The notes under the pieces were generated by a model that searched no databases, had not been told where the DNA came from, and saw nothing but the letters and a program-made list of their open reading frames with translations. DNA of 64,000 nt from Solibacillus sp. FSL H8-0523 (lineage in GTDB: Bacteria; Bacillota; Bacilli; Bacillales_A; Planococcaceae). Location: the NCBI RefSeq assembly GCF_038051985.1, contig NZ_CP150291.1, forward strand, positions 2,232,001 to 2,296,000, given 5' to 3'. Both the position numbers and the translations under genes were made by a program. Positions 27,988 through 60,770 of the stretch are shown one piece after another (the first letter of the stretch is position 1; the number at the start of each line of letters is the position of its first letter).

Positions 27988-28247
27988 AAAAAACCCTCGC
28001 CTCTACACGGATTGCTCCGAATAGAGACGAGGGTTTAACTCGCGGTACCACTCTAATTGAACGCCTAAACGTTCCTCTTAAGACCCTTGTAACGGCGGGT
28101 GCCCGACTTCCCTACTAAATTTCAGGTTGTATGCTCCTGGACGAGTTCAATAGCGGCATCCACCAGTTCACACCACCCACTGGCTCTCTTAAGGTATCCT
28201 GCTCATTTACTACTTCCAATCAACGCTTCCATGTTCTCTTGAAAAGA
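27988..28247 (-). ncRNA. T-box leader (leucine specifier CUC) controlling leuA
   Basis: tRNA-sensing leader RNA read on the minus strand. The T-box core AGAGTGGTACCGCG lies at 28041-28054. Stem I contains the AGAGAG and GGTG motifs, and the specifier loop shows GAA-CTC at 28143-28148, a CUC leucine codon. A terminator with ACCCTCG...CGAGGGT arms and T6 lies at 27988-28036. Uncharged tRNA-Leu should stabilise the antiterminator and switch on leuA. Confidence 0.93.
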
Positions 28248-33470: not shown

Positions 33471-34057
33471 GGCTCATCACCGTAACATCGGGTTGCATTT
33501 TCTAATAAAATTTCACTTAATTTATTGGTGGGCTACGGCATGACAGCATTATGACCACGTGGTACGTGTCCATACTACTGTCTTTAATGCCGTTTGCTAT
33601 GCCCACCAATTCATCATTTTACCCTCTTTATATATTTTAAGAGCGCAAAATCAAGCCGCTTGCGCTAACGCGAGGCGGCGGGTGGTGGAAAAGTTCTCCT
33701 TCTTAATCAAATTTACTTTAATTCAATACTCTGCTATTGATAGAAAATTTATTTATCAAAGGATTCTTTTTTATTACCTTTAATTATATGTAGCACGATT
33801 TAAAAAGGAAAAAGCTTTCAATTTATTTGCTTCATTATTTTTATTGAAGTTCACTTTATGCCAAAGTAGAGTGGCGCGAAGTGGAGGGGTAACTCCAGCG
33901 GGAACAGCACGCGCGGAAAATCCATTTTTTTTGCCGCCGTAAGAGGCACAAAAAATTAGTTGGAGCCGTGCCCGCGGAACGTAACAGAACGGATCCGCTT
34001 AAAAATCACCCATTCTATTTATTAAACTTTGTCATCCCCAACTTATGGTGATGAGCC
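33471..34057 (+). repeat. Structured dispersed repeat family B, copy 1 (full length, 587 bp)
   Basis: Ends form imperfect inverted repeats: GGCTCATCACCGTAACATCG on the left and, read inward from the right, GGCTCATCACCATAAGTTGG. Inside lie a hairpin with perfect arms ATTGGTGGGC (33524-33533) and GCCCACCAAT (33601-33610) enclosing CGGCAT/ATGCCG, a GCCGCTTGCG...CGAGGCGGC stem near 33655, and a third hairpin at 33925-33955 with loop GCCGTAAGA. No protein-coding frame of note. The right end lies 2-4 bp from the telA terminator. Confidence 0.85.
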
Positions 34058-39279: not shown

Positions 39280-39350
39280 AAAAAAGACACCTTTCATTCA
39301 GTTTATTAGTCTCCTATTATACGCCTTAATGTAATTTTTGGTAAATAAAA

Positions 39351-39955
39351 AGTTCATCACTAAAACATGGGGTTGCTATTTCTAATGAAGTTTTTTTATC
39401 TTGATTGGCGTGCTACGGCAAGACCGCGACAAAGCCACGTGATACGTGTCTTTATCACTGTCTTTGTTGCCGTTTGCGAGGCACGCCAATCACAAAGTGT
39501 TTCTCTCGATATAAAGTGAAGGGAAAACCGCTCAATTAAGCCGCTTGCGCTTCGCGAGGCGGCGGTGGACGGAAATGCTAGGGTGTACTTATCGGTGGCG
39601 CTCTGTTAAAAGGAAACGCCATTTTTACAAAAGTTCACTTTATAAAAAAGTAGAGTGACGCTGAGCGGAGGGAGGCTACCAATACATCCGCTTCAACGAA
39701 AAGAGTTGTACGGAGCGCAGTGGCGGACTCCTTGGCGATTAAGCGTGAGCGGAAAATCCACTTTTGCTGCCGCCGTCAGAGGCAGCAAAAGTTAGTTGGA
39801 GCCACGCCGCCCGGAAAGCCTGCCCCGGAGCGCAGTACAATGGACCCGAGCTTAAAACCACCTTGCTTTAACGCGTATCCCCCCGTAGCGCAGCAGAACA
39901 CCCTCCATTAGAAAAACGTTTTCACCTTGCCATCCCCAACTTATGGTGAGAAACC
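39351..39955 (+). repeat. Structured dispersed repeat family B, copy 2 (605 bp)
   Basis: Same order of elements as copy 1. The first hairpin is TGATTGGCGTGC (39402-39413) with GCACGCCAATCA (39481-39492) and inner CGGCAA/TTGCCG. A GCCGCTTGCG...CGAGGCGGC stem lies near 39543. The third hairpin is CTTTTGCTGCC (39761-39771) with GGCAGCAAAAG (39781-39791) and loop GCCGTCAGA. Stems differ from copy 1 by compensatory changes. Ends carry TTCATCACTAAAACATGGGG and CATCCCCAACTTATGGTGAG. An 11-bp direct repeat AAATAAAAAGT flanks it. Confidence 0.85.
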
Positions 39956-39998
39956 AAATAAAAAGTACCCTCCTAAAAGCAGGAAGGTACCATTTTTT
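39956..39998 (-). terminator. Terminator of argH
   Basis: Arms GTACCCTCCT and AGGAAGGTAC, A/T runs on both sides. The T-tract abuts repeat B copy 2. Confidence 0.8.
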
Positions 39999-48182: not shown

Positions 48183-48245
48183 CATTCATCCCCCTTTTAC
48201 TCATTATAACGCATTTTTTCTCAATATTACTATAATTTTGTTGAA

Positions 48246-48595
48246 TCACCATAATTCGGGTATGAAAAAGTTCAATAAACAGAATGGATACTTTTTAATA
48301 GGATCCGTTCTGCTACGTTCCGGGGAAGCTTTCCGCGGGCACGGCTCCAACTAATTTTTTGCGCCTTTTACGGCGGCACAAAAAATGGATTTTCCGCGCG
48401 TGCTGTTCCCGCTGGAGTCCCCCCTCCACTTTGCGTCACTCTACTTTGGCATAAAATTTGCTTATATATAAAAACGTCATACTTTTCCATAATCCACCGC
48501 CTCGCAACAGCGCAAACGGCATTAAAGTCTGTATTGCCAACAATCAAAAAAGTAAAATTTTATAAAAAAACAACCCCATATTTCGGTGATAAGCC
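48246..48595 (-). repeat. Structured dispersed repeat family B, copy 3 (350 bp, inverted, internally deleted)
   Basis: Reads on the minus strand relative to copies 1 and 2. Ends match: CCATAATTCGGGTATG on the left and CAACCCCATATTTCGGTGAT on the right. The third hairpin is kept: TTTTTTGCGCC (48355-48365) and GGCACAAAAAA (48375-48385), whose 9-nt loop on the minus strand is GCCGTAAAA. The outer arms of the first hairpin are lost, with CTTTAATGCCGTTTG fused directly to GCGAGGCGG. Right end lies about 7 bp from the chemoreceptor terminator stem. Confidence 0.82.
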
Positions 48596-54090: not shown

Positions 54091-54287
54091 TATCAATTAC
54101 GCCTCGGCGTAATTGCGTCCAGATTTTTTCGAGTTGGGGCCACATGATGTGGGTCAGTCCGCCGTTGTCACAGGACGTGACGCATTTAGGCTGACTTCCT
54201 CTTTTAAACTCCTTTAAAAATCTGTGACTTCCGCCGGGGCTTAACTTAATTCAGTGGGGATTCAAATCCCCACTGAATTAAGTTAAT
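54091..54287 (+). repeat. Dispersed repeat family C, copy 2 (long form) with a 46-bp palindrome
   Basis: Contains the 22-bp palindrome at 54094-54115 (CAATTACGCC / GGCGTAATTG), then AGATTTTTTCGAG, a copy-specific insert of about 80 bp, AAAAATCTGTGACTTCCGCC, and a perfect inverted repeat with 22-bp arms at 54241-54286 (TTAACTTAATTCAG... and its complement, centre CA). Copy 1 at 28285-28410 is inverted relative to this one and lacks the insert. Lies just upstream of rnz. No ORF. Confidence 0.75.
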
Positions 54288-60464: not shown

Positions 60465-60770
60465 AATGAGTTGGTTTGAAGCTCTAGTCCGTTGTACTGC
60501 GTTACGGGGCAGGCTTTCCGGGCGGCGTGGCTCCAACTAAATGTTTCATGCCTCTTCCGGTGGCATGGAACATTGGATTTTCCGCGCACGCTTAATCGCC
60601 AAGGAGTCCGCCCCTTCACTCCGCCCAACTCTTTTCGTTGAAGCAATTTTATTAGTAGCTCTTCTTTCACTTCGCGCCACTCTCTCATAAATTTGATTAA
60701 TTCGCAAATGACATCAATCGATCAAGTAAGGGTCTATTAGAAAAAAATCCAACATTATGGTGTCGAACCT
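60465..60770 (-). repeat. Structured dispersed repeat family B, copy 4 (partial, inverted)
   Basis: Matches copy 2 in inverse orientation over TACTGCG-TTACGGGGCAGG, CTTTCCGGGCGGCGTGGCTCC, CACGCTTAATCGCCAAGGAG and AACTCTTTTCGTTGAAGC. Its hairpin has new arms, ATGTTTCATGCC (60541-60552) and GGCATGGAACAT (60562-60573), around a 9-nt loop (ACCGGAAGA on the minus strand). The right end CCAACATTATGGTG resembles the family end; the left end is diverged. Lies between convergent genes. An 82-residue frame inside is treated as non-coding. Confidence 0.75.

Follow-up and report, generated by a model that had tools for sequence, protein, structure and literature searches.

The 64,000-nt stretch of Solibacillus sp. 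FSL H8-0523 DNA analysed here (the window) holds four copies of a dispersed element, family B, which raises the question of whether such copies are dead insertion debris or carry a folded shape that selection has kept. All four copies are present, two per strand, and match one another (Table 1). The first-pass annotation had them share ends and internal order and contain no ORF. The sites and the mutual matching stand, but copies 3 and 4 are shortened; no ORF of at least 80 aa lies inside copies 1–3, and an 82-aa ORF overlaps copy 4. Family B copies are not one unit and comprise at least two separable hairpin modules, the complete copies having module A, a hairpin on the 5′ side, and module B, a compound hairpin of ~109 nt on the right. 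Compared with the other copies, copy 1 has a partly absent right arm of module B. Copy 3 has lost most of module A and keeps a 5′ hairpin remnant, and neither module A nor a 5′ hairpin was seen in the sequence of copy 4.

Table 1 Features of the four family B copies in the window, and the kinds of element (containers) in which module B was found. TIR, terminal inverted repeat; TSD, target-site duplication; R1, covariance model of module B.
Feature	Position or carrier	Strand	Basis or remark
Copy 1, complete MITE, 587 bp	33471..34057	+	Both ends recognisable, GGCTCATCACC...GGTGATGAGCC
Copy 1, left TIR	33471..33495	+	
Copy 1, right TIR	34033..34057	-	
Copy 1, module A, 5′ compound hairpin	33524..33610	+	31-pair structure counted on 30 copies
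Copy 1, middle small hairpin GCCGC..GCGGC	33655..33679	+	Read in sequence
Copy 1, module B	33882..33989	+	R1 90.9 bits and alignment
Copy 1, module B apical stem and 9-nt loop GCCGTAAGA	33924..33956	+	
Copy 2, complete MITE, 605 bp	39351..39955	+	TIRs and perfect 8-bp TSD AAATAAAA, zero shift
Copy 2, TSD AAATAAAA, left	39343..39350	.	
Copy 2, TSD AAATAAAA, right	39956..39963	.	
Copy 2, module A, stretch as aligned	39402..39494	+	
Copy 2, module B, stem type ACTTTTGCTGCC	39717..39826	+	R1 98.1 bits
Copy 3, shortened MITE, ~356 bp	48240..48595	-	End-like sequences on both sides
Copy 3, module B	48321..48428	-	R1 112.9 bits
Copy 4, decayed MITE	60465..60770	-	Left TIR recognisable, right end poor
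Copy 4, module B, stem type AATGTTCCATGCC	60506..60617	-	R1 97.6 bits
Container 1, ISL3-type ends	G000, G014		Transposase identified
Container 2, GAGGCTGGGACA-type ends	Kurthia plasmid		Annotated IS1182 transposase inside element
Container 3, CAGAYTGTMGACAAA-type ends	G005, G007; similar ends in G245		
Container 4, CGGACTTGATATAAAC-type ends	Paraliobacillus		Read by eye
Container 5, GATACAAACTGCGCA-type ends	G298		Both ends by pattern in 2/8 loci; more by eye

The family B copies are ISL3-type MITEs. Elements of up to ~600 bp carry imperfect ISL3-like TIRs, and complete ones span about GGYTCATCACCRTAACATGGGGTTG to CATCCCCAACTTATGGTGATGARCC. Two blastn queries against the window's own genome (G000; 4.14 Mb, one contig) returned 62 and 77 matching pieces, which together with end-pattern matches form 53 clusters, and both ends are recognisable in 14 of these. 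Flanking 8-mers of the 14 two-ended elements agree at zero shift in all eight positions in two cases (copy 2, AAATAAAA, and the element at 3486190, AGAATTTT) and in seven positions in two more (4/14 at seven or above), the remaining ten agreeing in 2–6 of 8; in a control that paired flanks from different elements, 1/182 pairs agreed in all eight and 3/182 in at least seven. The A-rich flanks of copy 1 agree in 6/8 positions at zero shift and 7/8 at a 1-nt shift, those of copy 3 in at most 5/8 and those of copy 4 in at most 4/8. Compared by eye, the relation to ISL3-type TIRs appears in GGYTCATCACCRTAAnnTGGGG set against GGTTCTAAGTAAAATGTTGGGG, with the TTGGGG block at equal offset.

The ISL3 transposase domain (PF01610) occurs in 9/16 genomes of the genus, and in the own genome ISL3 is present only as a remnant. 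One congener (G014) holds three ISL3 elements of 1513–1515 bp with matching ends, one with a 403-aa transposase ORF and two of the three with perfect 8-bp TSDs; a module-B variant (54.5 bits) has the transposase gene on one side and the right inverted repeat on the other. The ends of the two genomes have the GGTTC start and the TTGGGG block in common and have otherwise diverged. ISL3-transposase loci of four further congeners (G005, G007, G008 and G013) gave no module-B match at E 0.01. The ISL3 ends, the relatives in G014 and these module-B-free loci thus mark module B as optional cargo of ISL3 elements. Family B is like ISL3 insertion sequences and their MITEs in these ends, in the 8-bp AT-rich TSD and in the module B of the congener's ISL3, and differs from them in holding covarying hairpin modules that are common to other element types. 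A search of G035 spacers for a coding parent gave a short stretch alone, read as a transposase start. As to empty sites, loci compared in two congeners have repeats in common and flanks that are not orthologous, and plasmid searches gave back only the queries and other copies.

From the outside inward, module B starts with a 5-bp helix (GGCGG/CCGCC, GGGGG/CCCCC or GGGGC/GCCCC), followed by an internal loop region, GACTCC/GGAAAGC, within which three additional pairs are counted. A 4-bp helix (GCGG/CCGC, GGCG/CGCC, GGGG/CCCC or GAGG/CCTC), a bulge (GAACA or ATTAA) and a second 5-bp helix (GCACG/CGTGC or GCGTG/CACGC) then lead to the innermost conserved internal loop, GAAAATCC/TTAGTTG, beyond which lies the apical stem that the first-pass annotation had singled out. 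Its quoted hairpins with differing stems were recovered in all four copies. The apical loop (GCCGYMAGA and variants), said to be always 9 nt, has that length in 34/36 own-genome copies fitting the flanking motif, among which 18 different left arms occur, but is 8 nt in the other two; outside the own genome's group it is not always 9 nt, and G043 has shorter ones. The well-kept parts are the internal loops around GAARATCC/TTAGYTG, GGGAACAGCACG and GGAAAGC, many columns of the internal loops being kept at 0.90–1.00 across many genomes. Folded as single sequences, the four copies of module B are only moderately better than their shuffles (z of -1.5, -3.2, -2.4 and -3.4 for copies 1–4). In two own-genome copies (L098 and L113), additional sequence that ends with a GCGACAGGAGCAC motif directly precedes GGAAAATCC. 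In some Paraliobacillus copies (L186, L195, L203, L187 and L220), a short hairpin of GTGGGGCTGCGATTACTCGCCCCAT type, a nested palindromic repeat, is inserted in or beside module B at varying places. Other hairpin-rich repeats, of GAAAGTATAAACT type, lie close to module B at loci L136 and L145 of G043.

To judge covariation, we relied on shuffles, slid structures and an empirical column-pair null rather than on R-scape. In a wide alignment of 103 distinct sequences from many genomes, 29/29 pairs have changed on both sides and 95.1% of 2632 cells are paired. The covariation score is 0.522 against 0.145 for shuffled alignments, none of 500 shuffles matching it, and structures slid by 1–3 columns score at most 0.074. 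When all columns were ranked by APC-corrected G statistic, the top 15 column pairs were all structural, so that 15/29 structural pairs stand above every non-structural pair. The others rank from 18 to 783 of 4950, and covariation is thus uneven, the lowest places, including the one at 783, being taken by conserved pairs of the inner helix. The 16th column pair (43 and 221) changes from GAAAATC/AGTTG to GAAGATC/AGCTG, A-T to G-C, inside the inner loop, and looks like an extra base pair of that loop.

Alignment A4 was fitted to the model, which favours the structure, and own-genome alignment A3 was likewise model-fitted, but such fitting is unlikely to explain the covariation in full, as the free variation of both partners argues against it. 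Two subtypes in A3 were judged to be misaligned by one column in the outer helices, and A3 was kept out of the covariation claim. Alignment A1 comprises 35/37 module-B stretches, the two omitted being those with an additional insert; A2 has 29 rows, made up of 25/46 stretches and four placed by hand, and its sequences match R1 by construction because R1 was built from it. Unpaired columns of the wide alignment are kept better than paired ones (mean top frequency 0.83 versus 0.68), which is not expected from simple drift or from replication that perfects palindromes. Together, a covariation signal above shuffles and slid structures, 15/29 pairs above the null and kept loops support well that module B is under selection for its folded shape.

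The first-pass view that pairing-preserving changes reflect selection on folded RNA or DNA hairpins is therefore upheld by the double changes and the 500 shuffles, and the covariation test that it proposed gives a signal on the 103-sequence alignment, both by shuffles and by the column-pair null. Its statement that the copies are more than dead insertion debris holds as to shape selection, but the copies are nevertheless MITEs. Against selection it had set a known MITE with a coding parent and random drift. The MITE half describes these copies (ISL3-type ends, some 8-bp TSDs and a coding relative in a congener); the drift half probably does not, given the covariation and the kept loops.

Module A, the second hairpin for which changing paired stems had been noticed, also covaries. 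On 30 copies, 13/31 pairs have changed on both sides, 94.6% of cells are paired and the covariation score exceeds those of 500/500 shuffles (alignment A6 takes 30/51 pattern rows, the others being chance matches or truncated copies). It folds strongly better than shuffles (z of -5.6 in copy 1 and -7.1 in copy 2) and is present in 9/16 genomes of the genus. An own-genome element of 197 bp (L095, in the region of G000:C1:1405199) combines ISL3-like ends on both sides with part of module A; its flanks agree in 7/8 positions, and it has no module-B match.

The genome search with a covariance model that had been suggested shows module B to be widespread. In the own genome, where 150/1348 first-look candidates were scored, R1 has at least 52 matches with E no higher than 0.001. 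With 12 candidates scored per genome, R1 matches 75/299 genomes of the class Bacilli, in 28/119 genera; class-wide copy numbers from these best 12 candidates are lower bounds. In a sample of the phylum, 2/299 genomes match, both of the own family, which makes the sample a useful specificity control. Locus searches with R1 used selected sources, 50 for the own-genome set and 87 for the wide set. Carriers of the AAAATCC type include Evansella clarkii, Gracilibacillus, Paraliobacillus, Virgibacillus and Lysinibacillus. Among plasmid records, an AAAATCC-type query found two, both Kurthia plasmids, and a second query found six, in Priestia, Radiobacillus, Peribacillus and Planococcus; phage records gave no match to this second query, the one used.

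Module B lies inside elements with five kinds of ends (Table 1, containers 1–5). As three of the five lack an identified transposase, their independence rests on end sequences that were partly read by eye. The GAGGCTGGGACA-type ends also occur in a Priestia plasmid and in G198, with at most two mismatches per end. Target duplications were sought for the Kurthia and G298 elements, and none was evident. In G245, small elements with CAGANTGTCGAAAAAG / CTCAACAGCCTG ends (L370-L373) sit in terminator-like hairpins, with much of the hairpin, or the whole of it, repeated on the two sides; the exact repeats are 20, 15, 30 and 16 nt long, whereas 1922 random pairs have a median of 5 and at most 15.

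Module B also has a preferred polarity. Neighbouring matches at most 700 bp apart are in minus–plus order, with the 3′ sides (GGAAAGC) outward, in 28/32 pairs, the rest being four direct and no plus–minus pairs (duplicate loci L157 and L131 were left out of this recount). Counted by genome, since many pairs are copies within one genome, 11 are minus–plus and none plus–minus. One apparently unnamed, shape-selected module might be the common end-part of several unrelated transposon families of Bacilli, acquired separately with the same outward polarity and doing one general job, a possibility that we put forward as a conjecture rather than a probable conclusion. The job could be, for example, to insulate, process or mark element ends through a conserved host factor.

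Our leading reading, which we hold tentatively, is that family B elements are non-autonomous ISL3-type MITEs and that module B is recognised by its fold. A conserved cellular factor would recognise the module through its internal loops, most likely when it folds as an RNA hairpin in read-through transcripts entering or leaving the element. The function that we infer for module B is that of a transcript-processing, stabilising or insulating structure, which would make insertions tolerable and shield the element or the host from harm by outside transcription. Both effects would explain why different transposons acquired and retained it. Mobility of the MITEs themselves would come from transposases that act on the terminal repeats, and not from module B. 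According to PMC3446304, bcr-type repeats occur in transcripts (84/165 and 62/155 in two strains) and bcr3 is associated with longer mRNA half-life; by analogy, it is plausible that module B acts as RNA.

Wobble pairs bear on the choice between RNA and DNA. There is an excess of G.T over A.C in the wide alignment, both over all rows (84 versus 35) and when only rows with 90% or more Watson-Crick pairs are counted (30 versus 4); without pair 32-232, the counts are 55 versus 35 and 19 versus 4, respectively. Such an excess is expected if the strand reading GAAAATCC acts as RNA. Alignment A3 points in the opposite direction (A.C 54 versus G.T 28), but 37 of its A.C cells fall in two pairs judged to be misaligned, and without these pairs A.C is 17 versus G.T 28.

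The closest competitor, which we regard as somewhat unlikely, places the hairpin in DNA: as a cruciform or a single strand, module B would be bound by a transposase or by a DNA protein of the host and be required for mobilisation, in the manner of REP hairpins and TnpA-REP (RAYT). On this account, the inverted pairs with their outward polarity would mark module B as a transposon-end site. It is also favoured by the A.C excess of the raw own-genome alignment and by the scarcity of G.T pairs (84/2632 cells in the wide alignment), more being expected of a structural RNA. Nor is there a sense-strand preference relative to flanking tandem genes, with 18 copies in the same and 14 in the opposite orientation in the own genome and 17/17 elsewhere. 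RAYT-like Y1 proteins, one of which is the sole PF01797 match found in the own genome, occur in 37/299 genomes of the class, and 23 of these 37 are among the 75 that have module B (odds ratio 6.6), but this association is confounded by phylogeny. Moreover, no RAYT-like protein was found in 52/75 module-B genomes, including the copy-rich G043; the best module-B scores at 30 RAYT loci (~1.5 kb on each side) were E 0.04, 0.058 and 0.35; and duplications, where seen, abut the terminal repeats rather than module B. We therefore rejected RAYT as the motor of module B, given association but no proximity in the 30 loci examined, and take the RAYT-like protein as a lead. The own-genome RAYT-like gene (L153 1459-2037; G000:C1:530195-530770) adjoins an ISL3 remnant and overlaps the end of an ORF whose product was read as ComM/Mg-chelatase-like.

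Family B resembles REP/BIME/REPIN systems with RAYT in its hairpins in inverted pairs, its many copies and the single RAYT-like gene of the genome. It differs in the size of module B, whose ~109 nt in the model exceed a 20–40 bp REP several times over, and in that the module was not found flanking RAYT genes in the 30 loci; no constant GTAG/CGTC tag was seen in the module-B alignments.

Less probable still is that module B is a domesticated host element, ERIC- or bcr-like, with a chromosome-level or mRNA-stability role, which transposons carry by chance insertion. Several copies do lie outside any container recognised in the sequence examined; of 20 loci scanned for GAGGCTGGGACA ends alone, three have them on both sides, and some of the other 17 lie in other containers. 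Gene context can be read the same way. Sites between convergent genes are commoner than in control gaps of G035 (27/104 versus 21/167) and sites between divergent genes rarer (11/104 versus 31/167, p 0.09), but neutral insertion with purifying selection would explain the convergent excess as well. These counts come from 43 own-genome sites and 63/105 wide matches, classified with a simple ORF caller that ignores ORFs of less than 700 nt overlying a site; no ORF of at least 700 nt called in this way spans any of the 104 classified sites, and small genes annotated as hypothetical overlie two Priestia copies. Against a host element of this kind stand the recurrent polarity and the presence of module B in insertion sequences of two families. 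Replication by itself, through template switching in quasi-palindromes that perfects functionless stems, is a very doubtful source of the covariation, as it would account for long stems that are near-perfect though differing between copies, sometimes including the outer flanks, and for the dominance of Watson-Crick pairs, but it should also pair the internal loops, many columns of which are kept at 0.90–1.00, and one wobble direction is preferred in the wide alignment.

Repeats with GGAAAGCG cores occur frequently in Bacillus genomes, and we know of no name for them. Searches of the literature on bcr repeats, ISL3/IS1182 MITEs and structured RNAs yielded no paper that we recognised as describing module B, and core strings of module B had no text matches there. 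The one literature match of a container-end string is an unrelated paper and was set aside. In Rfam, no family reached gathering score for these elements in the whole window and six related loci, and with a relaxed threshold copies 1 and 2 gave only sub-threshold matches. Intergenic stem-loop repeats and hairpin MITEs are themselves an already known kind, including bcr1, EFAR, RUP, BOX, NEMIS and ERIC (available sections of PMC2267715 and PMC3733652). Family B is like ERIC, YPAL, NEMIS, EFAR, bcr1, RUP and BOX in being non-coding, intergenic, multicopy and MITE-like with long imperfect hairpins; those repeats are named for single species or groups in the same sections of PMC3733652 and PMC2267715, whereas module B spans many genera of Bacilli and several containers. 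Part of the module-B family may already have been seen in single species, for instance as Efa-1/EFAR, Bhal-1 or Sta-1, stem-loop families for which PMC2267715 gives names, sizes and copy numbers. The part of PMC4666352 at hand holds nothing further on the module-B family.

Module B, rather than the MITE, seems to be the interesting part, as its shape appears to be selected and it occurs in many Bacilli, in several mobile elements and in one polarity. If the preferred reading of module B as a recognised shape, most likely an RNA hairpin, is right, this is a structured element in 75/299 sampled genomes of the class, without an Rfam match on the tested copies, and it would direct attention to a host factor, or a transposon trick, able to read one fold that different mobile elements share. 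Bacterial intergenic hairpin repeats, a loose class, also become testable in this way, with one covariance model, defined internal-loop residues and natural elements with and without module B. Elsewhere in the window, on the minus strand, 28020-28232 and 54139-54205 match a T-box leader (RF00230) and Bacillaceae-1 RNA (RF01690), both at gathering score; Bacillaceae-1 and module B are both structured elements of Bacilli, and the window's Bacillaceae-1 match lies away from the family B copies.
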